Of a stretch of DNA of 64,000 nucleotides, positions 36,184 through 53,263 are shown piece after piece. Every line of letters begins with the position of its first letter. The first letter of the stretch is position 1. The notes under the pieces are model-generated. The model did not search any database, was not told the DNA's origin, and saw nothing but the letters and a program-made list of their open reading frames with translations. The stretch comes from Rhodobacteraceae bacterium EL53 (GTDB lineage: Bacteria; Pseudomonadota; Alphaproteobacteria; Rhodobacterales; Rhodobacteraceae), in NCBI GenBank assembly GCA_900313015.1, contig OMPR01000009.1, positions 62,001-126,000 on the forward strand. Direction: 5' to 3'. The position numbers and the translations under genes are program-made.

Positions 36184-37109
36184 GCTGCGGTCCTTTTGGG
36201 GCGGCGAGTGAGGTGGATACCTGCGATCATGCAGCGGACAGACCCGCCGGCGGTTTCGATCGTTGGGATATTTAATGGAAGGGGTATTGCAGTGCGTTCG
36301 ATGATGGCAATCTGATCAGGGCGTAGAGCGTCAAGTGCACGTGCTGACAATGCCAAAACGCGTTTGTTGCCAGTCAATTCAATCGCGTTTCCTGCGAAAG
36401 AGGCAATTTGCTCGGCTGAAAGATCGATCACTGTGCGCCCGGATTCGCTAAGGCGGTCCAGAATGGTGCGACGTCTATCCAGATCCTTGATCATGTCCAG
36501 ACAGATCAATGCAAATTCGGTTCCAATGCCCATCAAGACATTTGTGTGATAAATAGCGCGTCCCAGTTGATCAGTGGCGTCAAAGCAGAGCGGCTCATAG
36601 TTAAAGTGGGTGCAAAACCGTTCCAGTATAATGGGATTTGCCCGATCGGATCGCGCCACGTAGGCGATGCGCCCGATGTGGTCCAGCACCATTGCCCCTG
36701 TGCCTTCTAATGCCAGCCCGTCTTGTTCTAGGCCGCTGTAGTCAACGACGTCGGAAACTCGATAGTCTTGTTTGAGCATGTCGATGACGTCCGTACGCCG
36801 TTCGCGCCGGCGATTTTCCACATGCATTGGGTAGAGAGCAACATGCCCTCCAGTGTGGGTGGAGAACCAATTGTTTGGGAAAACACTGTCTGGTGTCTCC
36901 CTTTCCCCGAAATCATCAAAGACATGCACTTGAACGCCCGCCTTACGTAAGCAAGAGGTGGCAGTGTCGAACTCTTCAAGCGCGTGTTGGGCGACGTTTG
37001 TAGCGGTATCAGACGTTTGAAACGCGTTGTCGAACCGTGTTTCGGGATTGGACTGAAAATTGTGGGGGCGAATCATAACGACGGCTGCGGGGGCTTGAAT
37101 CGTGGTCAT
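36180..37109 (-). CDS. ctlX: CtlX-type citrulline-utilising hydrolase (arginine deiminase superfamily)
   Basis: A 309-residue protein of the guanidino-group-modifying (amidinotransferase) fold. VFPNNWFSTHTGG (about 76-88) holds the substrate-binding Asn/Trp, AIYHTNVLMGIG near 185-195 the catalytic histidine, and GGSVRCMIAGIHL near 290 the catalytic cysteine. The CtlX group hydrolyses citrulline to ornithine, carbon dioxide and ammonia; a dimethylarginine hydrolase role is an alternative. Its place between arginase and ornithine cyclodeaminase, with 4-nt overlaps at both ends, supports an ornithine-forming role. Confidence 0.8.
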   Translation of the reverse strand: MTTIQAPAAVVMIRPHNFQSNPETRFDNAFQTSDTATNVAQHALEEFDTATSCLRKAGVQVHVFDDFGERETPDSVFPNNWFSTHTGGHVALYPMHVENRRRERRTDVIDMLKQDYRVSDVVDYSGLEQDGLALEGTGAMVLDHIGRIAYVARSDRANPIILERFCTHFNYEPLCFDATDQLGRAIYHTNVLMGIGTEFALICLDMIKDLDRRRTILDRLSESGRTVIDLSAEQIASFAGNAIELTGNKRVLALSARALDALRPDQIAIIERTAIPLPLNIPTIETAGGSVRCMIAGIHLTRRPKRTAA

Positions 37110-38032
37110 AGAAAGCTCCGCGTGGGGCGGTCAAAGACACGACGCCCAAGCGCTGAGGCGGCAAGATCCACCATCAATTGAGCTGTCCGGCCGCGTTCAT
37201 CCAGAAAGGGGTTAAGCTCAACAAGATCCAAAGAGGTCATCAAACCGCTGTCACAGATCAGTTCCATGACCAAATGCCCTTCGCGCATCGTCGCGCCACC
37301 GGGAACAGTGGTTCCAACAGCCGGTGCTATTGAGGGGTCTAGAAAATCAACATCCAATGATACATGAAGCAGGCCATTTTGTTCAGCGACATGTGCAAGA
37401 AAATCAGTGAGGGGCTTGGAAATCCCTGTTTCATCAATCTGGCGCATGTCATGAAATCGGATGGCGGTCTGTTGCAACGCTTCACGCTCTGCGTGATCGA
37501 CGGATCGTAGGCCGAGGATGCAAATGTTTTCTTGTGGGATTGGTGATGTGACAGCCGGAAACCCTGTAAAACCTTCGCGTCCTGTGACATAGCCTAATGG
37601 CGTCCCATGCAAATTTCCGGAATCTGTCGTCTGGGGGGTATGGAAATCGCTATGCGCGTCTAACCAAAGCACGAACTGGGGCCGTTTCCTTTTGGCCGCA
37701 TAGTTTGCAACGCCAGCAACACTGCCTAAGGCAAGAGCGTGGTCACCCCCTAAGAAAATTGGTAGCCCGTGTTCCATCGAATTCTCGGCGATACGAATGA
37801 GCCGGTGTGTCCAACCTATTGTTTCATTTAGCTGATTCAGGTGTGTGCTTTCTGATTCAGGTTGGTGATTGGCAGGCGTTAAGTTTCCCATATCTTTGAC
37901 CGAATGACCCAAGTCCTGCAACGCGTCGCCTAATCCAGCTGTGCGATAAGAATCCGGGCCCATAAGACAGCCCGCTCCGCGCTTACCGCTATCGACTGGT
38001 GCGCCGATTATGATACAGTGTTTTGAAGTCAT
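37106..38032 (-). CDS. rocF: Arginase
   Basis: A 308-residue ureohydrolase forming ornithine and urea from arginine, with a binuclear manganese site. The metal-binding motifs are GGDHALALGS, DAHSDFHTPQ and SLDVDFLDPSIAPAVGTTVPG. The start is one of two adjacent ATG codons (38035 or 38032); the latter is chosen because GAGG is 6 nt upstream. The longer frame to 38092 begins in the promoter region shared with lrp. It is the first gene of the operon and is divergent from an Lrp-type regulator 110 nt away. Confidence 0.9.
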   Translation of the reverse strand: MTSKHCIIIGAPVDSGKRGAGCLMGPDSYRTAGLGDALQDLGHSVKDMGNLTPANHQPESESTHLNQLNETIGWTHRLIRIAENSMEHGLPIFLGGDHALALGSVAGVANYAAKRKRPQFVLWLDAHSDFHTPQTTDSGNLHGTPLGYVTGREGFTGFPAVTSPIPQENICILGLRSVDHAEREALQQTAIRFHDMRQIDETGISKPLTDFLAHVAEQNGLLHVSLDVDFLDPSIAPAVGTTVPGGATMREGHLVMELICDSGLMTSLDLVELNPFLDERGRTAQLMVDLAASALGRRVFDRPTRSFL

Positions 38033-38141
38033 CATCCGCCTCAGGAAAAATTGTGATGACCCAATAATTGTGCATTTCGTGTTGTAATCCACTGCTTAAA
38101 TCGACCATAATGAAGGTCAATTTAACGAATTGGAGCTTAAT

Positions 38142-39767: not shown

Positions 39768-39853
39768 GCCCAAGTGGCGGAATGGTAGACGCAGGGGATT
39801 CAAAATCCCCCGCCTTAACGGGCGTGCCGGTTCGAGTCCGGCCTTGGGTACCA
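39768..39853 (+). tRNA. tRNA-Leu (CAA)
   Basis: An 86-nt type II tRNA with a long variable arm. The acceptor stem GCCCAAG pairs with CTTGGGT (one G-T); the anticodon stem GGGGA/TCCCC encloses TTCAAAA with anticodon CAA at 39801-39803; the T arm is CCGGTTCGAGTCCGG; the CCA tail is encoded. A long hairpin follows at 39895. Confidence 0.95.
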
Positions 39854-39973: not shown

Positions 39974-40690
39974 TCAGTTGTTTTGAAGAAGTGAAATATT
40001 GAAAACTCCTGCATTCAAGTCGATCTGATCCAGAGCGTTTCGACCTAATGTATCTGTCTTATAAGTCAGCGAAACCCCAACTGATCTGAAGTTGAAGGGA
40101 TGCAGGTGGCCGGGGCCCTTGATGACCTTATAAGTCATCAAACAGGTCAGTTGCTTGCTCTGCACGATAGAACTTTTGGGCGAAACACGAATAAGGCGCC
40201 TGCCGTCATAAATGCGCAGGGATCCCGGACATTGGGTCTGAGCCGAAACAGAGCCAAATGCGTCTATCATGTCGGTGGCGATGAGGGGCGCGTTTTCCAA
40301 ATCGAGAGCCATCGCATTTTTGTATGGGGGCGTGACACGGGTTTGAACAACGCGTTTGTTTCGAAACAGAACGGAAACTTTTCGCGTTCGTTTCGGGGAT
40401 TCGTTACTGACGCGGTATTCGTAGGCCTGCCTACCGTCTGGACCGGTGGACGGCTGTCGTACGCCTATGAAAACACCATCAAAAACTCCCATTGGAGTAT
40501 TGTTGAGACGTGCAGTTAGGGTGCTGTGTAAACCGTGGTCTTTCTGGGTGCGACTATAGGTGACCTGCCCGAGTGTGCGGCCCATCATCTGAACGTCAAA
40601 CAGCCGTGTTTCGGCCATCACAGCTTGGGCATGTGAGAGCATCGTCAAAGTTTGGATGGTCAGAATAACGTGTGTGAGACGCCTCATCAT
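39974..40690 (-). CDS. DUF6134-family exported protein
   Basis: A 238-residue protein with a signal peptide (MRRLTHVILTIQTLTMLSHA, then AVMAET, cleavage near residue 27). The remaining part has no membrane helix; the sequence resembles DUF6134-type periplasmic beta-rich proteins with MGRTLGQVTYSRTQKDHGLH near 34-53, but I assign this only tentatively. The start is uncertain among ATG codons at 40705, 40690 and 40687, none with a strong ribosome-binding site; 40690 gives the best signal peptide. It lies 74 nt after the radical SAM gene in the same orientation, so it may belong to the lipid locus. Confidence 0.6.
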   Translation of the reverse strand: MMRRLTHVILTIQTLTMLSHAQAVMAETRLFDVQMMGRTLGQVTYSRTQKDHGLHSTLTARLNNTPMGVFDGVFIGVRQPSTGPDGRQAYEYRVSNESPKRTRKVSVLFRNKRVVQTRVTPPYKNAMALDLENAPLIATDMIDAFGSVSAQTQCPGSLRIYDGRRLIRVSPKSSIVQSKQLTCLMTYKVIKGPGHLHPFNFRSVGVSLTYKTDTLGRNALDQIDLNAGVFNISLLQNN

Positions 40691-40764
40691 GTGATTGTGG
40701 CCCATAGTACGGTCAGATCTCTTGGTATCAACGTGGCATCGGAGGGTATTAGATTTGCCGGCAA

Positions 40765-42369
40765 TCAACCAACTTTTGCCTCACCATGTTCCGGGGGACT
40801 CCACGTGCGGTTTTGGTCTTCTTCGGAGAGTAGTGCCAGCTGGCCTTCTATTTCCGTCTGAACGTCATTTCTAAAGACATAGAAATGTTCGAACATTGCC
40901 AGCATGGAGAAAAACCCTTTGAGACCGGCTTTGTTGTTCCGATAAAGATCAAGCGAGGCGCGCCAGAACAAACCACGCGAAGAGCGTATTAAACCATGTA
41001 ACGATAGGACTTTGAGCATCGTCATCACTTGCTTGAAGTTCAGTGGAAATGAACTTGGCGGGATACCTTTGGTTGGCCAAACTCCGTCCTTGGTTGCCAT
41101 GGCGTGACGATAGGCGCGATCCATGTAATGCCTCGGTTCATATAGGTTTTCATAGATCGCGGTGTGTTCTTGGGCCAATTCGGTAAGGGGGCGTGTGGGG
41201 ACAAAATTAGTTAATCGATTTGAGTTCAAATCCGCGTCGCGCTCTGTTTGCAGTAATCTCCCTTCGGCGCGTAAGCGATCTGTTAGGGCTGTTTTGGGCA
41301 GGGCTTGCAATAAGCTGACGATCACCATGGGGATCTGAGCATCTTCAACAAATTCGAGAATGCGCTTGTCCGCGCCGGGTTTCTCGCCATCAAACCCAAT
41401 GATGAACCCTCCGATGATTTTTAGGCCTGACTGATTGATGGTTTTAACCCGATCGACCAGTGACCCGCGTACATTTTGCTTTTTCTTGATATGGATAAGG
41501 CTGTCTTCATCCGGCGTTTCAATTCCTACAAAGACAGTAGTGAAATTCGCCTTGCGCATCATCGACATAAGCCCCGGATCTTCGGCCAGATCCACTGATG
41601 CCTCAGTCGTGAATGTAAACGGAAATCCATGCTCTGTTTGCCACGCGATCACCTCGTCCAACATAGGTTTCACTGTTAGTCGATTGCCGATGAAATTATC
41701 ATCCACCATAAAGATGCCACCGCGCCACCCTAGATCATACAGTTGGTCCAACTCTTCGCGAATTTGGGCGGGAGTTTTGGTCCGAGGTCTCCGCCCGAAA
41801 AGAGTGATGATATCGCAAAATTCACATAAAAATGGGCACCCACGGGAAAACTGAATAGACAGACTGTTGTAGTCGTAAATGTTGATCAGATCAAAACGTG
41901 GCTTGGGGCTGGTATGCATGTCAGCCTTTTGCCCTTTTGCGGTAAAAGTTCCAGACGTTGCTCCATTTAGAAGCGCTTCGACGAAGATGGGAATTGTGAG
42001 CTCACCTTCATCCAAAACAGCGAAGTCAGCGCCGGCTTCTAATACTTCATCCGGCAGGGACATTGCGTAGGGGCCACCAACTGCAACAGGCTTGCCGCGT
42101 TGCTTTGATTCCCGGATCAGCCCAAGCATATCTGCGCGTTGCACGATCATGCCTGATATGATTACGAGATCAGCCCAGTCCCAATCGGCATCTTCCAAGG
42201 TTTGAAAATCTCGGTCGACCAATCGGAATTCCCAATCCTGTGGCAGCAATGCGGCAACTGTCAGCAAACCCAAAGGCGGTAAGAGCGCTTTGCGTCCCAA
42301 TAGTTTCAGAGCGCCTTCGAAAGACCAAAAAGACGTAGGAAAATTGGGATTTATCAATAGTACCTTCAT
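40765..42369 (-). CDS. B12-binding-domain radical SAM protein
   Basis: A 534-residue enzyme. Residues 1-130 form a cobalamin-binding Rossmann domain (MKVLLINPNFPTSFWSFEGA, later VAVGGPYAMSLPDEVLEAGADF). The radical SAM core has C-x3-C-x2-C as CPFLCEFCD near 180-188, after FSRG, followed by the DDNFIGNR block. A C-terminal extension from about 370 resembles the DUF4070-type region of B12-dependent enzymes that modify lipids, such as hopanoid methylases. It is likely to methylate or otherwise alter an unactivated carbon. It follows the CerR-like gene on the minus strand after a 74-nt gap and faces lipid-type genes, so a lipid substrate is a fair inference. Confidence 0.82.
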   Translation of the reverse strand: MKVLLINPNFPTSFWSFEGALKLLGRKALLPPLGLLTVAALLPQDWEFRLVDRDFQTLEDADWDWADLVIISGMIVQRADMLGLIRESKQRGKPVAVGGPYAMSLPDEVLEAGADFAVLDEGELTIPIFVEALLNGATSGTFTAKGQKADMHTSPKPRFDLINIYDYNSLSIQFSRGCPFLCEFCDIITLFGRRPRTKTPAQIREELDQLYDLGWRGGIFMVDDNFIGNRLTVKPMLDEVIAWQTEHGFPFTFTTEASVDLAEDPGLMSMMRKANFTTVFVGIETPDEDSLIHIKKKQNVRGSLVDRVKTINQSGLKIIGGFIIGFDGEKPGADKRILEFVEDAQIPMVIVSLLQALPKTALTDRLRAEGRLLQTERDADLNSNRLTNFVPTRPLTELAQEHTAIYENLYEPRHYMDRAYRHAMATKDGVWPTKGIPPSSFPLNFKQVMTMLKVLSLHGLIRSSRGLFWRASLDLYRNNKAGLKGFFSMLAMFEHFYVFRNDVQTEIEGQLALLSEEDQNRTWSPPEHGEAKVG

Positions 42370-42443
42370 ATCGCGCCACCTTGAAAATCTTTGCGGATTA
42401 CTGGGCCTTGTAGGGAATAGGTAACAGAAAAATACCTTTGCAC

Positions 42444-43430
42444 CTAATCTTCAGTTTTCGGAAGGATAGCTGCCAGAATTTCGCGTGGTTTTCGTGGATT
42501 CCAGCCCAGATCTGAGTAACTGCGCGTTGGATCGGTCCTGACGACTTTGTCGTAAAGAAAGACAATGCGTTCTTTGTTCAAAATCATATTACGCCCCGTC
42601 CATGATCCGATCCAATCCATAACCATGGCAGCAGCCCTAACCAAGCTTTCAGGCATGTCAGGCGGAGGTTTGCGCCCAGTCATTTCCCCAAGAATTCCAA
42701 AAATTTCTCCCATGGTAGCTTCACCGGCGGACGCAATATAGCGCGTTCCGGGTATACCATGTTGAGCCACAAAGAAGAACAATTCAGCCAGATCTTCTAC
42801 GTGCACCATACCCAAGGGGCGATCTTGTGCGGGCCAAAACGGGAGGTGCCCGTTCAGGTATGCGCGCAAAGCTCTGCCAAAGTGAGGTTCGTCGCGCCCA
42901 AAAATTCCGGGCGGCAGAACAGAATATGTAGAGAATCCGGCTCGATTTCTGGTGATTACCAAGGCCTCAGCTTGGGTCTTGGTTTCATCATAGCAAGAGG
43001 CATAGTCTGTATCTGTACGAACATGGTCTCCATCTACCCGGGCCCCAGCGGTATCCCCCAGAGTGCGAACCGTGGAGCAATAAATGAATTTAGGAACACC
43101 AGCGGATTGGGCTGCCTCTAATAGAACGCGAGTTCCTTCCAGATTAACCTGTTTCATCAAGGTGCGATCAACTGTTCCGAGATCCACATAGGCCGCTGTA
43201 TGTATGACAAGATCAATCCCGTGTAAAACTTTGGTCAAACGGCCAGTCTGTTGAGGCAGAGCTAGATCAATCTCAACGCGGGTCACGCTTGTACCCTCAA
43301 GCAAATCCAAGTTTGAATTTGTCCTGACCATGGCGGTCACGGCGTAACCCTGCGCAAGGAGGTGCCGCACAACATGTGATCCAACATACCCGTTTGCACC
43401 GGTCACAAAAGCCGTCTTTAGCTCTGACAT
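42444..43430 (-). CDS. NAD-dependent epimerase/dehydratase-family reductase (CerR-like)
   Basis: A 328-residue extended SDR. The cofactor motif TGANGYVG is at residues 10-17, the catalytic serine region YCSTVRT at 117-123 and the YxxxK pair is Tyr147-Lys151. Extended SDRs of this type include dihydroflavonol-reductase-like enzymes and CerR, which in bacterial sphingolipid synthesis reduces the 3-keto group. Here it is divergent from the alpha-oxoamine synthase by 77 nt, the same neighbourhood as in caulobacterial ceramide loci. A role on the 3-keto intermediate is inferred from this context; substrates of sugar or hopanoid type are alternatives. Confidence 0.75.
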   Translation of the reverse strand: MSELKTAFVTGANGYVGSHVVRHLLAQGYAVTAMVRTNSNLDLLEGTSVTRVEIDLALPQQTGRLTKVLHGIDLVIHTAAYVDLGTVDRTLMKQVNLEGTRVLLEAAQSAGVPKFIYCSTVRTLGDTAGARVDGDHVRTDTDYASCYDETKTQAEALVITRNRAGFSTYSVLPPGIFGRDEPHFGRALRAYLNGHLPFWPAQDRPLGMVHVEDLAELFFFVAQHGIPGTRYIASAGEATMGEIFGILGEMTGRKPPPDMPESLVRAAAMVMDWIGSWTGRNMILNKERIVFLYDKVVRTDPTRSYSDLGWNPRKPREILAAILPKTED

Positions 43431-43507
43431 TTGCTCATCCTTGTTTAAATGTAGGTTCGATTGTAGGCTTCAAAGGATTGCCTTGTCCCTGAATAGTTTG
43501 AGTTTTC

Positions 43508-44797
43508 ATGCAAGTAGTTGATGACTATCTCCACAGCGTTGTTGCAGCCGACCTTGACCCTGATGAATTTGTTGTTCGGGAAAAGCAGGGCAATACAGTT
43601 GTCATGGAATGCAAGCGAACGGGCAGGGTGCATCGGGTCCTGAATTTCTGCGACAATGACATTTTGGGGTTTGCCCAAGACAGGGCAGTCAAAGACGCTG
43701 CGATACAGGCTATCGAGGATTTTGGAACCTCAAACAGTGGGTGTATGGCGTTGTGTGGTCGCAGCACCCCTCACGAAGAATTGGAGCGAGAGATCGCCAA
43801 TTTTAAAGGGGTTCCGCATACTCACCTGTTTCTGAATGCTTGGATGGCGTTGCAGGCTTTCATGGATGGATTTTGTCATCTTGCGATACCGGTGCCTGGA
43901 TTTAGCAACACAAGGCCCGTTTTGGTCATGACTGACATCTTAAATCACGGCTGCATTACCACTGCGGTTGTGAATGCAGGATCTAGGTCAGGGAAGTTGC
44001 TCACCAACAGTCCCGAGGTTCGCGTGGAAAGCTACAAGCATTGCGACATGGATCATTTGAGGAAAAAGCTGAAGCGTCTGGCTCGTCCCGAGGACAGGGT
44101 ATTGTTACTAACTGACTCTGTCTTTTCTATGGATGGGACAATTGTTCCGCTGCCGGAGCTCGTTGATGTCCTAGCGGATTATCCGGGTTCCACCTTGGTG
44201 TTGGATGAGGCGCACGCCTCAGGTGCTATCGGGCCTCGTGGGGGCGGGATATTTGACTATCATAGAATGACGCCAGAGATGCTGATGGCCAAAGGGGTTA
44301 ATCCTGTGATCCTGACGACGTTTTCCAAGTTTGCAGGGTCGGCCGGAGCCGCGATCAGCTCTTATTCCAAAGGGTTAGAGAGGCTGTTGAATGCTTGCCC
44401 AACTTCGATTGGGACAATTTCATTGCCTCCTTCAGCTGCAGCTTCGGCTGCCGAAGCCATTCGACAGCTCCGCGGGCGCCCGGAATTGGTGGCAAGGTTG
44501 ATGCAAAATGCCTCCTATGCGCGCGAAAACTTGAAGCAGGCAGGGTTTGAGGTATTGGGAGAAACGAATGTTCTACCCATGGTTTTACCTGCAGGGGTGC
44601 CACCCAAACATGTGGCGCGGTATTTGATTGAAGAACATGGTATTTGGGTCTCGCCGGTTTGGTATATCGCGCGTCCAAGATTGCGCGCTGTCGTTTCGGC
44701 CCAACATACAAACGCTGAAATTTCTAAATTAGTTGATGCTTTGGATCAGATGCGTTCAGTGTTTTACCCACACTCTGCAGCGGTCAATGCTGTATGA
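43508..44797 (+). CDS. Alpha-oxoamine synthase (serine palmitoyltransferase/AONS-like)
   Basis: A 429-residue PLP enzyme of the family that condenses an amino acid with an acyl-CoA or acyl-ACP and loses CO2. The PLP lysine is Lys274 in TFSKFAGSAG, the DEAH motif (Asp233 and His236) and LNHGC (His147) are intact, and VFSMDG is at 205-210. The usual FSSGYxAN block is replaced by FLNAWMALQAFMD (108-120). The gene overlaps the next one by 4 nt (ATGA), an N-acyltransferase-like protein, and is divergent from a CerR-like reductase, matching a ceramide-type pathway. The exact amino acid (serine, glycine or other) cannot be read from the sequence. The upstream GAG is a weak ribosome-binding site. Confidence 0.8.
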   Translation: MQVVDDYLHSVVAADLDPDEFVVREKQGNTVVMECKRTGRVHRVLNFCDNDILGFAQDRAVKDAAIQAIEDFGTSNSGCMALCGRSTPHEELEREIANFKGVPHTHLFLNAWMALQAFMDGFCHLAIPVPGFSNTRPVLVMTDILNHGCITTAVVNAGSRSGKLLTNSPEVRVESYKHCDMDHLRKKLKRLARPEDRVLLLTDSVFSMDGTIVPLPELVDVLADYPGSTLVLDEAHASGAIGPRGGGIFDYHRMTPEMLMAKGVNPVILTTFSKFAGSAGAAISSYSKGLERLLNACPTSIGTISLPPSAAASAAEAIRQLRGRPELVARLMQNASYARENLKQAGFEVLGETNVLPMVLPAGVPPKHVARYLIEEHGIWVSPVWYIARPRLRAVVSAQHTNAEISKLVDALDQMRSVFYPHSAAVNAV

Positions 44798-45933
44798 ATT
44801 TTTGTGTTAGACCCATCCAAAAAGCGTTCGATTTTAGGCGATTCGAACGCGTTCCTAATGTTGTATATCGCGATGACCCTAATTGGGTTCCGGACATGCC
44901 AGGCGCCATCAAGGGGCAATTGGGACCAGAGTCAAAGTTTCTGCAATACGGTCGGTTTCAGGCGTTTCTCGCCCAAACTGATAACGGGGAGCTACTGGGA
45001 CGGATCGTTGCTTCGGTTAATTCGCGACTTTGTGCAAAAGAAGGCAAGCAGATTGGTAGCTTTGGGTATTTTGAGACCATTCATAATCACGATATTTCGG
45101 ATGCCTTGTTTGATGCAGCAACAACTTGGTTGATAGAGCAGGGATGTGTTTTGGGTCGTGGTCCGATTGACCTGTCCACGCACATCGGTGGGCTCACGTT
45201 GGTCGATGGGTTTGATGAGCCTGCCTATATAAGAATGCCTTACAACCCGAGCTACTATCCCTCTTTGATTGAAAGCGCGGGATGGCACGGAGTCCGGGAT
45301 GCATTTGCTTTCGATTTTGCCATGGAACCGCTGGCCCCGGCCTTTGAGCGGGCGTATCGTTTGGCGCTACGGGCGGGGATCACCTTTCGCGCGGTTCATA
45401 CGAAAGGTGAGGCAATGCGCAGTGATCTGCGCGCGATACACGGCATATTCGCCACCAGTTTTGAAGACAATTGGAGCGCAACTGAGCGAGATGTCTCTGA
45501 ATTTGTAGATGAAGCTGAGCAGATGAGGCACATCATCGACCCCAGGTTATTTCCCGTTGCTGAATATAACGGAAAAGTGGTCGGGTTCTGGCTTGGTTTG
45601 CCGGACATCAATCGCGCATTGCGCGCCTCACGCGGGTGGCCAACTCCGCTTGTGTTTGCGCATTTGTTATGGAAACGACGTAGGCTGGATTCAGCGCGCG
45701 TGTTAGCTGTTGCGATCCTACCTGAGTTTCAAAAACCGCGTTACGCCTTGGGGCCGGCCCTTGTTTACCTGGGAATGGATGGCGGGGCATCTGGCGGGCA
45801 CCCTTACCAACGGGCGGAATTGTCCTGGGTTTGGGAAAACAATGCACGATCTTTGGGATTGATCCGCGGTGCCGCAGGGCGTCACTATAAAACCTATCGT
45901 ATGTTCGAGCGGACATTGGATGGGCGGACCTAA
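44794..45933 (+). CDS. GNAT-like N-acyltransferase, bacterial ceramide synthase (bCerS)-like
   Basis: A 379-residue protein of the group often labelled 'N-acetyltransferase' or 'dATP pyrophosphohydrolase'. It has GPIDLSTHIGGLTLVDGFDEP near 128-148, YNPSYYPSLIESAGW near 151-165 and the C-terminal RAELSWVWENNARSLGLIRG near 341. Its best functional parallel is bCerS, which N-acylates sphingoid bases in Caulobacter. The assignment rests on family resemblance plus the ATGA overlap with the alpha-oxoamine synthase. No membrane segments are seen. An exporter gene starts 22 nt after its stop. Confidence 0.72.
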   Translation: MNFCVRPIQKAFDFRRFERVPNVVYRDDPNWVPDMPGAIKGQLGPESKFLQYGRFQAFLAQTDNGELLGRIVASVNSRLCAKEGKQIGSFGYFETIHNHDISDALFDAATTWLIEQGCVLGRGPIDLSTHIGGLTLVDGFDEPAYIRMPYNPSYYPSLIESAGWHGVRDAFAFDFAMEPLAPAFERAYRLALRAGITFRAVHTKGEAMRSDLRAIHGIFATSFEDNWSATERDVSEFVDEAEQMRHIIDPRLFPVAEYNGKVVGFWLGLPDINRALRASRGWPTPLVFAHLLWKRRRLDSARVLAVAILPEFQKPRYALGPALVYLGMDGGASGGHPYQRAELSWVWENNARSLGLIRGAAGRHYKTYRMFERTLDGRT

Positions 45934-45955
45934 AGTAAAGGAAGAAAGTAGGCGG

Positions 45956-46951
45956 ATGGCGATGAAAACCTTATTGATGTGTGCGGCCATTGCGGTGGCA
46001 ACGACAAATAGTGGCTTGGCACAAACCCCTGCATCACCAACGCTTGTTGCGGGTCTTGGTTATGTGGAACCCGAAGGTGGCGTTACCAAAGTTGCCGGAG
46101 GTCCGTCCATCAGCAACAGCGTTGTTTACGAATTAAAAGTCGCCGAAGGGGATACCGTTAAACGAGCAGATCTGATTGCCGTACTGGGGGACAATGCGCT
46201 GATGCAGGCGGCCCTTATTCAAGCAGAAACAAGGGTTAAAGTCCAAGAGGCTCAATTGGCGCGGGTACAGGCCGGCGCGATGAAAAGTGAGCTGGACGCC
46301 AAGAAAGCAGTCGTTGATCGGTTAAAGAAAGAACTTGGAAACGTCGTAAAAGAATGCATTCGCCAGCAAAATCTATATGAACGGAAAATCATTTCAGAGG
46401 CGGTGTTCTTGCAAAACTGCAACCGCGTTGATGTGACCGAGGGACGCCTCAACGAAGCCGAGGCGACATTGGCCGCCGTTGCAACCATTCGTCCCGAAGA
46501 TATCTTGATCGCAGAAGCGGAATTGATAAGTGCACGCGCAAACGTTGGGCATGCGCGGGTCGCTTTAGAGGGCACTTTTGTGCGCGCCCCGACCAATGGA
46601 ACTATTTTAAAGGTTCACGCGACAGCCGGTGAACGGATCGGCCCGTCGGGGCTGGTCGATATGGGATTTGTAGAACGCATGTGGGTGTCAGCCGAGATTT
46701 ACGAAAGTGATATCTTGAAAGTGCAACCGGGGCAAAGCGCCTCTGTTATTGCGGATGGAATCGAGCAGAAAATCGAAGGCGTCGTGAAGAAAATCGGCCT
46801 GACGGTCTCCCGTAATGAACTGTTGTCGAACAATCCCACTGCGGACGTAGATGCCCGCGTGGTGGAGGTGAAAATTCTTTTGAATGAAGAAGATAGTCAC
46901 CATGTCGCGGGGCTTACAAACCTGCAGGTTTCAGTCGTCATTCATCCTTGA
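45956..46951 (+). CDS. HlyD/DevB-type membrane fusion protein
   Basis: A 331-residue periplasmic adaptor with an N-terminal signal/anchor (MAMKTLLMCAAIAVATTNSG, then LAQT), a biotinyl-lipoyl half motif, a long coiled-coil hairpin (about residues 80-195, EAQLARVQAG, KSELDAKKAV) and a beta-barrel part with VRAPTNGTILKVHATAGERI near 200. DevB proteins connect the DevC permease to an outer-membrane TolC-type channel for lipid export. Its stop region overlaps that of the converging DevA-like gene by 21 nt. Alternative starts at 45962 or 45920 are possible. Confidence 0.85.
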   Translation: MAMKTLLMCAAIAVATTNSGLAQTPASPTLVAGLGYVEPEGGVTKVAGGPSISNSVVYELKVAEGDTVKRADLIAVLGDNALMQAALIQAETRVKVQEAQLARVQAGAMKSELDAKKAVVDRLKKELGNVVKECIRQQNLYERKIISEAVFLQNCNRVDVTEGRLNEAEATLAAVATIRPEDILIAEAELISARANVGHARVALEGTFVRAPTNGTILKVHATAGERIGPSGLVDMGFVERMWVSAEIYESDILKVQPGQSASVIADGIEQKIEGVVKKIGLTVSRNELLSNNPTADVDARVVEVKILLNEEDSHHVAGLTNLQVSVVIHP

Positions 46952-48073
46952 AATTGGCGCTGATTGCTCGGCCTGCGTATCGACGTTGAAACGGGACCAC
47001 ATCTCGTCGGTGATGACGGCCCGTGTAGCACGTGACCGACTTATCATTTCCGAAAAATCCGCGGCTTTGATTTCTAGAACGCGCACAGGTTGATCGCCAC
47101 GGACCTCGATCGACGCATTTCGACGGCCATTCTCAGTTAACAACCCCATTTCGCCAAAATAGGTGCCGCGTTTGTGGAAATGGGCCAGATCGCTTCGGCT
47201 TCCATTGGTTTCTTGGCGGAACACGTTCACAGCCCCTTTGACCAAAATAAAGAATGCATCAGCCGGATCGCCCTGTTTCAGAATCTGTTCACCGGGCTGG
47301 AATTCGCGCGACACAGCTTTTGAGGCAATTTCGGCAAGGTGACGATCATCAAGGTTTGGCAAAACAAGAGAGATTTGTTCCGTGATCGCCGTGCCAATGC
47401 GCCCATCGATCATATGAAGGATCTCGTCAGCGCTATCCAGGATTCTCATATTGTGCGTGACAATGATGGCCGCGCTGTTTTGTGCTTTGGACAGACGTTG
47501 GACGAGGTCAATAATGTCACGCCCGGTAGAGGTATCTAGAGCGGCCGTAGGTTCGTCTGCGATCAACAGTTTGGGACGGTGGACCAGCGCGCGCGCGATG
47601 GCAACGCGCTGCTTCTGCCCGCCTGACAAATCCGCAGGGTAGTCATTGACCCGATCCCCTAAACCAACCGCATCCAGCATCTCCTCTGCCTGCGCCCGGG
47701 CTGTTTTTGCGTTGTAATCGGGCTGTATTTCAAGGCTTTGTTGTACGTTTTGCCGGATCGACATGAAGTCGAGAAGATTAAAGTGTTGAAACACATATCC
47801 AACGCGTTTGCGCATTTCCAACAGTTTTCGGGGACTGGCTTTGTGGAGTTCAGCGCCAAAAAGCTTAAGGCTGCCTTCTTGGACGGAACGAAGGCAACCA
47901 ACTAAAGATATCAGAGTTGTTTTGCCAGATCCGGAGTACCCTGTGAGGAACACGTTTTGCCCGGGCCTTACGTCAATATCGATTCCGTGCAGCACTTGCT
48001 TCATGACAGAGGCGTCTTTGTAGCTGTGTTTGAGGCCGCGGATTTTTACGATTGTATCATCTGTGTTTGACAT
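46931..48073 (-). CDS. ABC transporter ATPase (DevA type) fused to a cyclic-nucleotide-binding domain
   Basis: A 380-residue protein in two parts. Residues 5-230 are an ABC ATPase of the DevA/LolD branch with Walker A GYSGSGKTT (45-53), Q-loop, signature LSGGQ (149-153), Walker B LLIADEP (169-175) and the H-loop histidine in VTHN (205-208). Residues about 245-345 form a cNMP-binding domain (Crp fold) with the phosphate-cassette region FGEMGLLTENGRRNASI (306-322). The start at 48073 is preferred over an upstream extension. It is translated after a 7-nt gap from the DevC permease. The fused domain suggests cyclic-nucleotide or other ligand control over export. Confidence 0.87.
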   Translation of the reverse strand: MSNTDDTIVKIRGLKHSYKDASVMKQVLHGIDIDVRPGQNVFLTGYSGSGKTTLISLVGCLRSVQEGSLKLFGAELHKASPRKLLEMRKRVGYVFQHFNLLDFMSIRQNVQQSLEIQPDYNAKTARAQAEEMLDAVGLGDRVNDYPADLSGGQKQRVAIARALVHRPKLLIADEPTAALDTSTGRDIIDLVQRLSKAQNSAAIIVTHNMRILDSADEILHMIDGRIGTAITEQISLVLPNLDDRHLAEIASKAVSREFQPGEQILKQGDPADAFFILVKGAVNVFRQETNGSRSDLAHFHKRGTYFGEMGLLTENGRRNASIEVRGDQPVRVLEIKAADFSEMISRSRATRAVITDEMWSRFNVDTQAEQSAPISRMNDD

Positions 48074-48080
48074 GTCTGGA

Positions 48081-49256
48081 CTACCCAAAAAGATCGGCCG
48101 GATCGGCGTCGTTGAGTTTGCGAATAGCCAACAGGGCCGAAATAACACAAATGAAGGCGATGGCCCCAAAGACGATAGCTGCGACCTCCCACGTCATTTC
48201 GAAACGTAGCGCGGTTGCCTTGGCAATGACATCGTACATTAAAAAGCTAAGCCCGAGGCCAGGTAAAAACCCAAGAACGGCTAACATCAAAGCAGATCCC
48301 AGAACGATCCTGCGCAGTTGTCCGTTGCTGAACCCGATGGCCTTTAGGGTTGCAAAATCCCGGATGTATTTTGAGATCAGTTGAAACAGGATTTGGTAAA
48401 GAATGACGATCCCAACCGCGACGGCCCCACCAAGTCCAAAGCGAAAGATGATCCCAATCGGAGTTTGGAATTCATAAAAATCCCGTTCTTGGTCTAATAA
48501 GTCTGGCAGCGACACAACTTTTACATCTTCTGGCAGGTACGCATTCATTCTCGCGGCGACTTGCGTGGCGTCCGATCCGGGGTGCAGTTGGATCAGCCCC
48601 AGATTAATTTTGGAGCGCGGGCGGTTAAATACCTCCATAAAGGTTTCGTCGCTGGTAATGATGTGGGAGTTCGCGGATTGGTTCACGCCAACATCAAACA
48701 AACCAGTCACGCGAATGCGCGCTTGATGGCGACCACCGCGAACTTCGATACTATAATCTTCGTCAGATTTCACTGCCTCGATGATCTTGGAAAACGACTG
48801 CTTGGAGCGTTGGTCGATCAACACATTTCGCTTTATCTTGAGCTTGTCATACTGCTCATAGACGCTGTCTAGTAACATGACATCCCAGGTCAGTGGCAGA
48901 CCAATGGCTTGAACTTTGCGCAGATATTTTTCGCCCCCTTCAGGGTCGCGCATCAAAACACTGGACCAGTAAACCGGAGCGACGCGAGTGACTTCTTCAA
49001 AGGCTAGAGTTTGATTTAGGCGCAGTTCTGAAAATGTGGGGGTACGAAGAACCGTAACCGCAGATGAATTCAACATCACAGCATCGGCGTTAAAACTGGC
49101 GGGAAGATCCAGCAACGTGTTTAAAAAAGAAGAGCGAAACCCGATCTGCATGAAAAGAAGAACGGTGATGAACGTGATACCTAAAGCAGCAGAAACCGTT
49201 TGCGCCTTTTGATGGCGTAACTGAAGCCAAGAGATCCACGTTTTTCTGAACATCAA
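48081..49256 (-). CDS. ABC transporter permease, DevC type (FtsX-like)
   Basis: A 391-residue permease with a first helix at about 20-40, a large periplasmic domain (about 40-265) and three helices in the last third (GGAVAVGIVILYQILFQLIS near 275, VLGSALMLAVLGFLPGLGL near 318 and EVAAIVFGAIAFICVISALL near 355). The layout and the ISKYIRDFATLKAIGFSNGQL motif near 292 match DevC/MacB-type exporters. It forms the channel with the DevA-cNMP ATPase encoded 7 nt downstream and the DevB adaptor on the opposite strand. It lies downstream of a sulfotransferase gene, separated by a stem-loop. Confidence 0.85.
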   Translation of the reverse strand: MMFRKTWISWLQLRHQKAQTVSAALGITFITVLLFMQIGFRSSFLNTLLDLPASFNADAVMLNSSAVTVLRTPTFSELRLNQTLAFEEVTRVAPVYWSSVLMRDPEGGEKYLRKVQAIGLPLTWDVMLLDSVYEQYDKLKIKRNVLIDQRSKQSFSKIIEAVKSDEDYSIEVRGGRHQARIRVTGLFDVGVNQSANSHIITSDETFMEVFNRPRSKINLGLIQLHPGSDATQVAARMNAYLPEDVKVVSLPDLLDQERDFYEFQTPIGIIFRFGLGGAVAVGIVILYQILFQLISKYIRDFATLKAIGFSNGQLRRIVLGSALMLAVLGFLPGLGLSFLMYDVIAKATALRFEMTWEVAAIVFGAIAFICVISALLAIRKLNDADPADLFG

Positions 49257-49282
49257 TACCGTCTTGAGTTAAAGTTTGATCT

Positions 49283-49305
49283 ATAAAAGGGCCAATTGAT
49301 GGCCC
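49283..49305 (-). terminator. Stem-loop terminator/attenuator after the sulfotransferase gene
   Basis: On the minus strand GGGCCA and TGGCCC (49289-49294 with 49300-49305, loop of five) are followed by TTTT, 14 nt after the sulfotransferase stop. It is upstream of the DevC gene, so it may limit readthrough into the exporter. Confidence 0.55.
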
Positions 49306-49318
49306 GTGTAAACCTAGC

Positions 49319-50182
49319 TTATGTGTTAATTTGGTACCCTAATTCTGTAGCCAGAGCGAGAGACGACGGGCTAAACCCGTCTGTTGGTGTTTTTGATCTC
49401 GTAGATCCTTGGCGAAATACCGGGTTGTGCAGAAATTTTGTATCATTTCCCAGTGGTGCGTTCGGCGGCCCGACATGCGCAAAAGGTCCGTTTTCCGGAT
49501 GCAGCATTTGGTCAAGTATGTCAGCGTGAAAGGGCAGGTGAAGGCGTGCTGTAAGATCCTTAAAGAGGGCTTCGGGCTGAGTCATTAGATCTTCGCCTCT
49601 GACCGTGACTTTGCGATCTTCCGGAATTGTGTGCAGGAAGTCCACGATCCTTTTGTTGCAGTAGGTCCAGACAGCCTCGTCCTTGACAAACCAATGCAGA
49701 GGGATCCCGAACCTTTGTTTAACGCCTTTGAACGCCTCTTGGATGGACAAACGCACGTCCCGGGGATCCCGGATCAGATGAATATATCGGGCGTTTGGAC
49801 AAATGCGTTCCGTTCGATGCAGGAAATTGGGGTGCGCCGTTAAAATGGGTTCCTTTGCCAACAATGTTTGCGGTGCAACCCGTTCGCTGAGGTGCGCCCA
49901 AAGGCGAGCGGTTGTCCAATCCCGACGGTTGTTCAACCATTCGATGGCTGCCTGAACCTGCTCAGCGGATTGCCCCCCAAATTCCAACAGCGAGATCGTG
50001 CGATGTATCCCGTCTAGTGTAAAAATTCGATACAAACGCGACCTGCGTTGAAGCTGACCCACGGTTTCTGCCGCGAAAAGGCGCATTTCGGGAAAACCGA
50101 AAAGATCGGGGTGTTCGCCAAGCATTGTGCCAAACAGGGACGAATAGGACCTTGGGCTGGAGAGGATGAAAATAGGAGGCAC
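49319..50182 (-). CDS. Sulfotransferase (PAPS-dependent)
   Basis: A 287-residue sulfotransferase with the 5'-phosphosulfate loop SSPRSYSSLFGTM (residues 8-20) and the 3'-phosphate block RYIHLIRDPRDVRLSIQEAF (132-151). Such enzymes transfer sulfate from PAPS to a hydroxyl or amino acceptor: glycolipids, saccharides or small molecules. No signal peptide is seen, so it acts in the cytoplasm. It is in the same orientation as the DevC and DevA genes (63 nt before DevC), and the locus around it makes a lipid, so sulfation of a lipid headgroup is a plausible role. The acceptor cannot be told from the sequence. Confidence 0.83.
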   Translation of the reverse strand: MPPIFILSSPRSYSSLFGTMLGEHPDLFGFPEMRLFAAETVGQLQRRSRLYRIFTLDGIHRTISLLEFGGQSAEQVQAAIEWLNNRRDWTTARLWAHLSERVAPQTLLAKEPILTAHPNFLHRTERICPNARYIHLIRDPRDVRLSIQEAFKGVKQRFGIPLHWFVKDEAVWTYCNKRIVDFLHTIPEDRKVTVRGEDLMTQPEALFKDLTARLHLPFHADILDQMLHPENGPFAHVGPPNAPLGNDTKFLHNPVFRQGSTRSKTPTDGFSPSSLALATELGYQINT

Positions 50183-50437
50183 GTTTCCATTCTACCTTTT
50201 GTCTTTTTTTAGCCATATCACACTTTCTGATGTCAGTGGGGTTTGTTCTAAGTATGTGAGTTGTACCTGTTTCGCGAGGAGCCGATTCCCGTGTGTGTGT
50301 TAGAGAATTGTTTGCATTTGAACCTAAACTGAACCACATTTCTGAACTGTAGAACTGTTCGCTATCGATCACAGTTGGCAAAAATAAACCGGTCGGGGCA
50401 ATCAAGTTTTCCTATCAATTTGTAGAAATGGGCCTTC

Positions 50438-51517
50438 TTGAATTTGCGATTTGATCAGAAAACACTAACCAACGCAGGCAATGTACTTGTTTGTTGTGCA
50501 GTGGCTGCTTTGGGTTGTGCGGGCTTGCTCTGGGTTAATGGTCCTTTACCCTTTTTGTTAGGGAGCTTGCTGGCTGTCGCCGCTTATTCCATCGTGGTTT
50601 CATCAATCTGGGATGTAATGCCCTTCTTTCCTGTCGCTTTTCGTCAAATTGGGGTTGCCATTTTGGGGGCAATGATTGGCGTACTGTTCTCTCAGACTGA
50701 AATGTTAGACATGAGCGGCCTTTCAATCTCTTTAATGCTAGTGATACCGCTCATGTTGGTCATGCATGGGGCGGGGTATGCCGTCCTTCGAACTTTGGGG
50801 CAATACGATCGCACGACCGCTTTTTTTGCCAGCTTACCAGGTGGCCTGATCGAAGCCTCGGTATTAGGGGAAAAAGCTGGTGGAGACGCAGCTTGCATCA
50901 GCTTGCAGCATCTTGTCCGGATCATGTTAGTTGTCCTGACCGTGCCGATTTTCCTTTCCCAAATGTCGGGGGAAAGCTTGCGTGTTGCTCAGGCGATAAA
51001 CGAACCATCTGATGCGTTTAAGATGTTGGATTTGCTACTTTTGATAGGGATCGCTTTTGGGGGGATGAGTGCGGCGCGTTATCTGCGCCTGCCTTCGGCA
51101 CACCTGCTTGGGCCGGTGGCTGTTGGGGTCTTGTTCAGTCTTTGCGGGAACGTTCAAATTGACCCACCTGCGTGGTTGATTGCCGGAGCGCAAATTGTTG
51201 TCGGCGTCAGCCTGGGTGTACGATACGCAGGAACGTCTGCTAACGCATTGGTCTCTGGACTCATAAATGGTCTATGTGTGGTGGGGGTGACTTTACCTCT
51301 GGCGTTCTTCGCTGCATGGTGCGTTCACCCGTTTAGCACAGCAAGTTTTGAGGCCCTCGTCTTGTGCTTTGCGCCCGGCGGTGTTGCAGAATTGAGCGTA
51401 ATTGCCCTTAGTCTCGGGTTAAGCCCAGTGTTGGTGGCTTTGCACCATCTTACCCGAATTGGCGGTGCTTTGGGGTGGGCTGTTTTTGTGGGATGGACGG
51501 GTCGAGTTACCTCTTAG
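50438..51517 (+). CDS. AbrB-family membrane protein (PF05145 type)
   Basis: A 359-residue polytopic protein with about ten helices, built as two similar halves, of the AbrB/ammonia-monooxygenase-like family (not the Bacillus DNA-binding AbrB). FFASLPGGLIEASVLGEKAGGDAACISLQHLVRIMLVV near 127-165 and CFAPGGVAELSVIALSLGLSP near 318 are the repeated family signatures. The only start in frame after a stop is TTG at 50438 (or 50444), with weak ribosome-binding sequence, so the start is uncertain. Function unknown; probably a transporter. A GH3-family gene follows after 69 nt. Confidence 0.75.
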   Translation: MNLRFDQKTLTNAGNVLVCCAVAALGCAGLLWVNGPLPFLLGSLLAVAAYSIVVSSIWDVMPFFPVAFRQIGVAILGAMIGVLFSQTEMLDMSGLSISLMLVIPLMLVMHGAGYAVLRTLGQYDRTTAFFASLPGGLIEASVLGEKAGGDAACISLQHLVRIMLVVLTVPIFLSQMSGESLRVAQAINEPSDAFKMLDLLLLIGIAFGGMSAARYLRLPSAHLLGPVAVGVLFSLCGNVQIDPPAWLIAGAQIVVGVSLGVRYAGTSANALVSGLINGLCVVGVTLPLAFFAAWCVHPFSTASFEALVLCFAPGGVAELSVIALSLGLSPVLVALHHLTRIGGALGWAVFVGWTGRVTS

Positions 51518-51586
51518 GTTCGTTCCTTTTTGAAATGTGGGTTCTTAAATTTAGAGGCTAACCACGTTGAACGAGTAATGTGAAGA

Positions 51587-53263
51587 ATGTCCTTACCACT
51601 AAGATCTCTACTGATGAAGGCATCGCTGTATCAGGCGGCGCGGTTCGAAAAGAACACTCATTACAGTCGTCAGGCCCAAACAAGTACTTTGCAAGAAATT
51701 CTAAAGTATTCAGCTCCTTCTGTAATAGGGCGGGCTCTGGGTCTTAGATTGGGAATGGATGTAGATACTTTCCGCCGTCAGATTCCGCTGCATACTTATG
51801 ACGGATTTTCCCCCTTCGCAGACCGGATTGCACAGGGGGAAAAAGGGATCACCTCGAACCAGCATGTTCTGTGCTTGGCTTCAAGCAGTGGAACGACGGG
51901 AAAACGCAAAATGATCCCGATCACCCGGAAATCACATGCCGTGCGACAGAAAGCACGACTTGCCGCGGCGGGTTATTTGGTGCGGGCCTTACGAAACAAG
52001 GCCCTTTCACATGGGCGTCTTATGGTTACGAGCAGTGCCGCCATGATGGGGGAAACAGAGGGCGGCGTGCCATTTGGATACACCAGCGCCTGTTCGCACA
52101 GTTTAAACCGCAGCAAATACTCGGCCCGTGTCGTGACGCCTTATCCCTTTGATGTGATGGCGATCCCTAATGTACGCCAGCGCCACATCATGAGTTTTCT
52201 CTTCGCGATCCGGGACCCAGAATTGCGCTTCATTTCAGGGAGCTTTCCGCCGTTCTTGCTGCAGATCGCTGGGCAATTGTCTGAAGAAACGCCATTGCTG
52301 ATATCTATGCTGCGCAAAGGCGGGGTTCCAGATGGTATAGATCTGGATGGCCCGACCCGCAAACGCCTGAACCGCATGTTGCCAGCTGATCCGAACCGCG
52401 CAGATTTTCTGGAACGAATTCTTGAAACCAAACAGACGCTCAAACCTTTGGATATCTGGCCTGGCTTATCTGCTTTGTGCACCTCAAGTGGGGTTGCCTC
52501 GGACCCCTATTTACCGAGGATCGCTAAAGCATTTGGTCCACTGCCTATCTTTGGTGGGTTATATTCGTCTACCGAAGCAATTTTTGGAATTCATACGGAC
52601 CTGGATGATGGATCTGCAACCTTGGCTGTTAACACAGGTTTTTTCGAGTTCATCCCCCAGTGTCAATGGCATGCTTCAAACCCTGAAACGGTGCTTGAAC
52701 ACGAGGTAGTGGTTGGCGAAGAGTACCGGATTGTCACCACCAACTTTCACGGACTTATGCGCTATGATATCGGCGATATTGTTCGGATCACCGGCTGGCA
52801 CAATTCGGCGCCAAGGCTAACTTTCCTGCGCCGTCGTGGTGGGCAGTTGTCAGCAGTGCACGAAATGACGACGGAAGCCGACATAGATCAGGCCTTGTCC
52901 GAAGTTATGTCGCTGAGGGGCATTACTTTTAGAGATGCAGGCGTTACCCTTGAATGCGGGGGCACGACCCAGCGGTATTTATGGATGTTGGAATTGGAGG
53001 GAGAGACTCCATCCATAAATCCGGATATCCTAGCAAGCGATCTCGATAATGCGCTTGGGCGGTCTAACATCGCGTATAAAAATAGGCGGGAGGACTATAT
53101 TCCGCCTCCGCGCGTTATGCTGTTCTCTCCGGGCGCAATCGCGCAGTTTTTGGGGCGCTCAACAGAGCCAACCACAGACGATCAGCTCAAACCACGTCGT
53201 ATTCTTTACGGGACACCGGATTTGATCACTCTCATTGAGAGTGGCACGTCTACCTCTAAATAG
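51587..53263 (+). CDS. GH3-family acyl-adenylating enzyme (amido synthetase-like)
   Basis: A 558-residue protein of the GH3 family, adenylate-forming enzymes that in plants conjugate carboxylic acids (auxin, jasmonate) to amino acids. Visible ATP motifs are LASSSGTTGKRKMIPIT (about 102-118), GGLYSSTEAIFGI (about 323) and the FRGLMRYDIGDIVRITG-like block FHGLMRYDIGDIVRITGW (about 388). The hinge lysine and a C-terminal domain are present; the length is close to that of plant GH3. Bacterial members are poorly characterised. It lies downstream of an AbrB-family gene. Whether it serves the upstream lipid locus is unknown. Confidence 0.8.
   Translation: MSLPLRSLLMKASLYQAARFEKNTHYSRQAQTSTLQEILKYSAPSVIGRALGLRLGMDVDTFRRQIPLHTYDGFSPFADRIAQGEKGITSNQHVLCLASSSGTTGKRKMIPITRKSHAVRQKARLAAAGYLVRALRNKALSHGRLMVTSSAAMMGETEGGVPFGYTSACSHSLNRSKYSARVVTPYPFDVMAIPNVRQRHIMSFLFAIRDPELRFISGSFPPFLLQIAGQLSEETPLLISMLRKGGVPDGIDLDGPTRKRLNRMLPADPNRADFLERILETKQTLKPLDIWPGLSALCTSSGVASDPYLPRIAKAFGPLPIFGGLYSSTEAIFGIHTDLDDGSATLAVNTGFFEFIPQCQWHASNPETVLEHEVVVGEEYRIVTTNFHGLMRYDIGDIVRITGWHNSAPRLTFLRRRGGQLSAVHEMTTEADIDQALSEVMSLRGITFRDAGVTLECGGTTQRYLWMLELEGETPSINPDILASDLDNALGRSNIAYKNRREDYIPPPRVMLFSPGAIAQFLGRSTEPTTDDQLKPRRILYGTPDLITLIESGTSTSK

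Follow-up and report, generated by a model that had tools for sequence, protein, structure and literature searches.

A locus conserved between two roseobacters

The 64-kb window analysed here, a stretch of 64,000 nucleotides of contig OMPR01000009.1 that forms part of the 4.86 Mb genome of Rhodobacteraceae bacterium EL53, carries a run of genes whose core is a conserved unit encoding an alpha-oxoamine synthase (AOS), an N-acyltransferase of the bCerS/YghO family and an extended short-chain dehydrogenase/reductase (SDR) (Table 1). In the two roseobacters from which the locus is known so far, EL53 and Shimia abyssi, this core is joined to genes for a B12-binding radical SAM protein, a sulfotransferase and an exporter of the DevB/DevC/DevA (DevBCA) type. 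An earlier note on positions 39974-50182 had described these genes as an enzyme set for making an N-acylated long-chain base, accompanied by tailoring and export functions. All the genes that it named are intact open reading frames whose Pfam and NCBIfam content agrees with the inventory, including the radical SAM and sulfotransferase labels (domains, motif and E-value in Table 1), and the set is indeed conserved as a group; its descriptions of the synthase as "serine palmitoyltransferase type" and of the reductase as "CerR-like" are not supported. What it missed is the GH3-family enzyme further downstream, the mainly cyanobacterial spread of the core and its rarity within the organism's own family.

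Shimia abyssi has homologues of all 11 window proteins compared (39974 to 53263), arranged in an identical order, ten of them at 51-87% identity (73% for the radical SAM protein, 57% for the sulfotransferase) and the small secreted protein at 37-38%, so the arrangement is not due to chance; since the AbrB-type protein and the GH3 enzyme are co-conserved there, the conserved locus reaches 53263. Shimia has one extra gene (L012:15865-16659), between those for the sulfotransferase and the AbrB-type protein, whose product belongs to the Asp/Arg-hydroxylase family PF05118, that of the lipid A hydroxylase LpxO.

Scanning one genome per species with AOS protein patterns, an approach that reaches close relatives only, returned three loci, in Shimia abyssi (76%), Oscillatoria sp. 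SIO1A7 (55%) and a member of the Nitrospirota (29%). The last (L014) was rejected as a relative, being a BioF gene beside BioD-like and FabG-like frames by our own reading. Oscillatoria groups genes for the radical SAM protein, AOS, N-acyltransferase and reductase, with the first half of the AOS missing and the radical SAM protein in two frames; its other AOS enzymes score just 2.2e-43 and 8.2e-34 with the AOS profile. In the same region (L013:8819-9795), a Rieske oxygenase gene begins and continues straight into the second half of the AOS gene, as would be expected had the intervening sequence been deleted or misassembled.

The AOS occurs in one of 198 genomes of the window's family (E ≤ 1e-60) and in one of 398 Pseudomonadota genomes, in both cases the window's own, and a plasmid collection gave no match to it at E ≤ 1e-30. 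The reductase tree nests the roseobacter pair inside cyanobacteria (95/90), whereas a three-gene concatenation places the pair beside distant outgroups (99.9/99), possibly by long-branch attraction; the two trees point to no single direction of transfer.

Table 1. Genes of the conserved locus, in window coordinates
Product	Position	Strand	Features
Small protein, likely signal peptide (own reading)	39974-40768	-	no Pfam/NCBIfam family; likely start 40705
B12-binding radical SAM protein	40765-42369	-	Radical_SAM, B12-binding, DUF4070; single CxxxCxxC motif CPFLCEFC
Extended SDR (epimerase-type), proposed 3-keto reductase	42444-43430	-	Epimerase, 3Beta_HSD; motifs GANGYVG, YDETK
Alpha-oxoamine synthase (AOS), separate clade	43508-44797	+	Aminotran_1_2 6.4e-35; PLP lysine K274
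bCerS/YghO-family N-acyltransferase	44794-45933	+	tblastn match to yghO; 4-base overlap with AOS
DevB-family membrane fusion protein	45956-46951	+	chosen start; frame opens 45869; passes NCBIfam
DevA-type ATPase with C-terminal cyclic-nucleotide-binding domain	46931-48073	-	chosen start; frame opens 48169
DevC-type permease	48081-49256	-	Pfam/NCBIfam families
Sulfotransferase	49319-50182	-	Sulfotransfer_3 5.1e-22
AbrB-family (PF05145) membrane protein	50438-51517	+	conserved in Shimia
GH3-family acyl-adenylating enzyme, AOS-associated subfamily	51587-53263	+	GH3 domains; beyond the region of the earlier note

The three core enzymes

In a tree of 43 rows, whose references are labelled by NCBIfam or annotation and include several long branches, the AOS proteins of the window, Shimia and 27 cyanobacteria form a single 29-row clade (100/100, stem 4.46) apart from the serine palmitoyltransferase (SPT), KBL, BioF and ALAS references. 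A five-row group of SPT and SPT-like enzymes (100/99; three rows pass SPT models and two fail) excludes this clade, whose deeper placement is unsure. The AOS scores 154, 159 and 108 bits with the SPT models NF047599, NF047600 and NF047603 (cut-offs 500, 640 and 670) and 214 bits with its best annotation model, BioF (cut-off 426), passing no curated cut-off at all, while the SPTs of E. coli, Sphingomonas and a Klebsiella plasmid each pass at least one curated SPT model. Tree and cut-offs together lead us to reject SPT membership and likewise a BioF, KBL or ALAS identity, though by BLASTP the AOS matches, beyond its own clade, a BioF (3e-38) and two ALAS-type enzymes (2e-37 and 2e-36) best, followed by an SPT-like AOS from Aureispira (6e-34). 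Judged by its sequence, the enzyme thus belongs to a separate deep clade of alpha-oxoamine synthases and is not a demonstrated SPT, which makes serine as its substrate a guess; the grouping with KBL or AONS that the earlier note had set against its own proposal is not seen either, the tree joining the AOS to neither KBL nor BioF.

An Spt-like clade from the Black Sea was likewise recognized through neighbouring bCerS and CerR genes, in a survey described as accepting matches to known Spt queries only from E ≤ 1e-70, with the database size set to 1e8, and as extending Spt-like proteins to many phyla (PMC11334938). BLASTP of the AOS against the three model-passing SPTs, the only ones used for this comparison, gives 2e-24, 1e-23 and 7e-16, also at that database size; because the best of these values falls far short of 1e-70, a screen of this type would probably miss the enzyme.

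At the level of catalytic machinery, the AOS resembles SPTs as far as the whole family does. A profile of 14 clade members finds a bacterial SPT as its top solved structure (6e-47), ahead of KBL, AONS and ALAS types, and alignment to the Sphingomonas enzyme (SpSPT) shows that H147, D233, H236, T271, K274 and R393 are kept (SpSPT H159, D231, H234, T262, K265 and R390). The catalytic residues are retained in 27 of 27 cyanobacterial sequences, but the pyridoxal phosphate (PLP) lysine K274, the stacking histidine H147 and the D233/H236 pair are common to every AOS reference aligned and hence not specific to SPT. Differences from SpSPT comprise two insertions, a PPATPAG loop that is four residues shorter and lacks the double proline and the glycine, and Trp385 in place of Arg378. 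The tryptophan is invariant across the 27 cyanobacterial sequences; since E. coli SPT carries Leu at this position, it is weak evidence of a difference and does not by itself exclude SPT activity.

The AOS stop and the N-acyltransferase start share the four bases ATGA, which makes the translational coupling proposed in the earlier note plausible. Pfam and NCBIfam give no match for the N-acyltransferase, nor does it find a solved relative as a single query; a profile of 15 sequences yields weak matches to GNAT acetyltransferases only, mostly near the C-terminus (best E about 0.005). Its relationship to YghO is clear: tblastn matches it to annotated E. coli yghO at 8e-38, E. coli BL21 YghO used as query against the window gives 1.3e-41, homology is full-length at 26% identity and 29 columns are invariant in the 15 sequences. 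On this evidence the protein belongs to the bCerS/YghO family and is predicted to acylate a long-chain base. Because yghO and Caulobacter CC_1154 are presented as the same N-acyltransferase gene, required for dihydroceramide (PMC9386255), the label "bCerS-like" is borne out.

In E. coli BL21, Sphingomonas and a Klebsiella plasmid, a YghO-family gene is found no more than about 7 kb from an SPT gene, and AOS, N-acyltransferase and reductase genes are clustered on a Streptomyces and an Aureispira plasmid, whose AOS enzymes pass no SPT model. The plasmid of Streptomyces sp. NBC_01001 (L021:10769-15295) carries a four-gene run of AOS, YghO-family, epimerase and condensation-domain genes, with no acyl carrier protein (ACP) listed nearby. 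The proteobacterial ceramide pathway (spt, acpR, aasR, epi/cerR and aca/bcerS; Caulobacter, and yghO-spt in E. coli BL21) likewise brings together an AOS, a YghO-family enzyme and an SDR; the present locus differs in its AOS clade, in having no specialized ACP gene that could be found and in its GH3, sulfotransferase and radical SAM genes.

The "CerR-like" designation of the reductase, in turn, reflects its gene position. Among curated models this extended SDR scores best with HpnA (153 bits, below the cut-off of 367.65); it matches the reductases of four other AOS/YghO loci at 2e-21 to 1.2e-10, and those four group apart from it in the tree. This comparison was made with one Klebsiella row omitted for its over-long frame and with no Caulobacter CerR sequence.

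Cyanobacterial neighbourhoods and partner genes

Among 386 cyanobacterial genomes, for which no completeness is stated, 28 carry the AOS: 27 as near full-length proteins at ≤ 1.5e-186 and Oscillatoria in part. Each of the 27 full-length genes was viewed in a stretch of at most 20 kb, eight stretches falling below that length. Nineteen of the stretches contain the N-acyltransferase gene, which in 18 comes immediately downstream of the AOS gene on the same strand; 13 contain the reductase gene, which in 10 comes directly after that of the N-acyltransferase. Other neighbours are a Rieske oxygenase (14 stretches, directly upstream of the AOS in 11), a major facilitator superfamily (MFS) transporter (14), GH3 (five genes in four stretches), a PF04116 hydroxylase (three) and the radical SAM protein (one). 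The outcome in which the genes would not be conserved together, named in the earlier note as contrary to its proposal, is not what is found: the core genes stay together in Shimia and in cyanobacteria.

Co-occurrence across genomes follows the same lines. Strong N-acyltransferase matches (E ≤ 1e-150) are present in 28/28 genomes with the AOS and 1/358 without (next best genome 1.6e-83; 45/386 genomes at E ≤ 1e-20), strong GH3 matches (E ≤ 1e-70) in 21/28 and 1/358 (next 2e-61; any GH3 at 1e-20 in 49/386), and strong Rieske matches (E ≤ 1e-150) in 17/28 and, among 32 hand-picked AOS-lacking controls out of 60 genomes so chosen, 1/32; these cut-offs were set after the gaps had become visible, and the N-acyltransferase profile included nine cyanobacterial sequences from AOS loci, whereas the GH3 search used an independent Pfam model. 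The sole AOS-lacking exception is the same genome for all three families (G495; L105 and G495:C20), in which the N-acyltransferase and reductase genes adjoin; it may have lost the AOS, or the AOS may be absent from the assembly. Away from their AOS genes, one genome (G261) has two radical SAM genes, a PF04116 hydroxylase and a GH3 gene within about 8 kb, and in another (G504) genes for a PF04116 hydroxylase, the reductase and the N-acyltransferase adjoin.

The GH3 protein has GH3 domains with SSGTT and YSSTE motifs, in common with JAR1-type amido synthetases and OlsH, and belongs to a subfamily tied to AOS genomes. Its best curated model is that of OlsH, NF052613, which it does not pass (92.7 bits against 620). 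A GH3 tree groups the proteins of the window and of Shimia with 16 sequences from AOS-carrying genomes or G495 (100/99), and seven other cyanobacterial GH3 sequences, one of them a second copy in an AOS-carrying genome, fall apart from these. One cyanobacterium has two tandem GH3 genes near its AOS (L070:13752-17270). GH3 enzymes form acyl-adenylates, and the enzyme could stand in for an ACP-based acyl supply; that it feeds the AOS is what we infer. In alpha-, beta- and gamma-proteobacteria, SPT genes are said to co-occur with a putative ACP and an acyl-CoA synthetase (PMC9386255). A search for a specialized ACP of this SPT type found none: the EL53 genome gives five PP-binding matches, none of them on the window's contig, of which three sit in long frames (1,330-2,157 codons) and two are free-standing, one of them presumed by our own reading to be AcpP and the other next to frames that we read as FabF-like and LpxD-like. 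A search for AasR in the window and two other stretches found none in the locus, with two weak matches elsewhere in the window (4.5e-8 and 1.4e-7).

All three exporter subunits claimed in the earlier note are present. DevB clears its NCBIfam cut-off (219.8 against 129), and DevA (295.3 against 295.8) and DevC (275.7 against 290.35) stay just below theirs. The DevB, DevC and DevA families are shared with the DevBCA/TolC glycolipid exporter of heterocyst-forming cyanobacteria, from which this locus differs in that no TolC gene is recognized in it and in that DevA is fused to a cyclic-nucleotide-binding domain in both roseobacters (window 46931-48169; Shimia L012:12456-13592), a feature suggesting that export may be regulated. 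In E. coli BL21 and Sphingomonas, in contrast to the Dev-type exporter here, genes annotated LptF/LptG are found close to spt.

Genes for tRNA-Leu (39768-39853) and tRNA-Asn (53468-53542) bracket the locus. A genomic island inserted at a tRNA gene was considered and rejected, the window containing no repeated tRNA end and the G+C content resembling that of the surroundings; the Shimia stretch as fetched has no tRNA gene. A promoter scan is uninformative (9 predicted, shuffle mean 13.0), and a PHROGs search gave no match for the N-acyltransferase or the 39974 protein. Upstream and outside the locus (35110-38092), we read the translations as ornithine cyclodeaminase-, dimethylargininase- and arginase-family-like.

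A predicted route to a ceramide-like amino lipid

Gene content and integrity, conservation, co-occurrence, the separate AOS clade and YghO-family membership are direct observations. From them we think that the locus probably directs the synthesis of a ceramide-like amino lipid through a variant bacterial ceramide pathway in which no specialized ACP takes part. Every reaction proposed below, the order of steps, sulfation and export are read from enzyme families. GH3 would activate a carboxylic acid as acyl-AMP, most likely supplying the acyl group in place of the proteobacterial AasR/AcpR pair, or else would add an amide-linked group. The AOS, by the PLP chemistry that its conserved residues imply, would condense an amino acid (serine most likely, as a guess) with a long-chain acyl thioester, releasing CO2 and giving a 3-keto long-chain base. 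The YghO/bCerS-family enzyme would N-acylate this base before the SDR enzyme reduces the ketone, as proposed for Caulobacter in an account according to which other authors put reduction first (PMC11087976). The chain would then be modified, probably by the radical SAM enzyme in roseobacters and by Rieske and PF04116 oxygenases in cyanobacteria; in roseobacters, the sulfotransferase would add sulfate to a hydroxyl, and DevBCA, with an outer-membrane channel encoded elsewhere, would move the lipid outward.

Several observations pull against this reading. The AOS falls outside the SPT clade and is closer by BLASTP to BioF and ALAS than to SPTs, which leaves room for a different substrate and product; the reductase resembles ceramide-locus reductases no more closely than it does HpnA; GH3 relatives with solved structures are named amido synthetases, not thioester-forming enzymes; and 7/28 AOS-carrying genomes lack a strong GH3 match. 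AlphaFold models are too poor to use (pLDDT 39 for the N-acyltransferase, 51 for the AOS). In the 27 cyanobacterial stretches, the AbrB-type protein, sulfotransferase, DevB and 39974 protein have no homologue at E ≤ 1e-8, and a close DevA is present in two only, DevC matches (L060, L066) and additional DevA matches being weaker. Radical SAM relatives (E ≤ 1e-90) occur in 26/28 AOS-carrying genomes and also in 21/32 of the hand-picked AOS-lacking controls (Fisher p = 0.013, a value that, like all such tests, ignores shared ancestry), and the copies from AOS loci do not form one clade. The idea that this protein is an equally tight partner of the AOS was dropped on these grounds; with members of its family common even in AOS-lacking cyanobacteria, the protein counts as a looser partner, whose support is co-location, beside the AOS in the window, Shimia, Oscillatoria (L013) and L060 and near GH3 in L129 and L130.

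Of the competing explanations, the least unlikely is a secreted specialized metabolite, in which the AOS product would be N-acylated and sulfated, undergo methylation or some other change by the radical SAM enzyme, and leave the cell through DevBCA. Other AOS clades contain enzymes for signals and natural products, and both the patchy spread (one genome of 198 in the family, 28 of 386 cyanobacteria) and the MFS and ABC exporter genes close by would suit such a product; the YghO-family enzyme, GH3, PF04116 hydroxylase partners and DevBCA type all indicate lipids instead, and no polyketide synthase or nonribosomal peptide synthetase gene is recognized in the locus.

A sulfonolipid-like (capnine-type) pathway, in which the AOS would use cysteate, N-acylation and reduction would follow and the sulfotransferase would act elsewhere, is improbable. 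The profile of 14 clade members does match a cysteate-C-fatty acyltransferase (3.1e-39), but this ranks below an SPT and several KBL, AONS and ALAS structures, and with a sulfonate already in place the sulfotransferase would be redundant. Roseobacters are described as making other sulfur aminolipids, yet their SAL is made through SalA, an O-acyltransferase, in an account whose relevant part mentions no oxoamine step (PMC8319176). We give no better chance to an aminolipid made by GH3 in the manner of the OlsH ornithine lipid, the AOS providing a head-group amine, GH3 an amide bond and the YghO-family enzyme a second acyl group: GH3 co-occurs with the AOS in 21 of 28 genomes and its best curated model, though far from passed, is that of OlsH, but the remaining seven lack a strong GH3 match while all 28 have the YghO-family enzyme. 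That the AOS is an ordinary KBL, BioF or ALAS paralogue set by chance beside unrelated genes, as its best annotation model and nearest BLASTP references might suggest, is very improbable given its separate clade, the failure to pass any cut-off and a gene set conserved in Shimia and cyanobacteria.

The ceramide-like reading may be extended, with the odds somewhat against it, to a second, separately diverged bacterial sphingolipid pathway: primed by GH3 in place of a specialized ACP and built on a new AOS subfamily, it would be present in about 7% of the cyanobacteria sampled (28/386), be the source of ceramides such as mooreaside A, and have passed between cyanobacteria and a small number of roseobacters, in which it would have been joined to the sulfotransferase and DevBCA to produce and display a sulfated ceramide-like lipid. 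If true, this would also identify an ABC transporter that exports a bacterial sphingolipid.

The open-licence literature searched yielded no description of this gene set, of a cyanobacterial AOS-bCerS locus or of a roseobacter sphingolipid locus, which is weak evidence of absence, and no gene assignment for cyanobacterial ceramides. Such ceramides are reported from two cyanobacteria, Scytonema julianum and Moorea producens, and the only gene test encountered, in Nostoc punctiforme, is described as detecting neither SPT activity nor a sphingolipid (PMC8895605). The base of mooreaside A, a glucosylceramide, is C17 (PMC6272925).

In summary, the observation holds and reaches further than the earlier note supposed: the locus is a coherent relative of the bacterial ceramide pathway that is associated with GH3, occurs mainly in cyanobacteria and is rare in roseobacters, with a chemistry predicted from its enzyme families. 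The gene set provides candidate genes for the cyanobacterial ceramides and a marker for choosing cyanobacteria to test, would widen the range of enzymes counted by Spt-based surveys, and hints at how the first step could be supplied when no specialized acyl carrier protein is involved. For the stage at which the authors of a Caulobacter study note that flippases and transporters await identification (PMC11087976), DevBCA is a candidate exporter.

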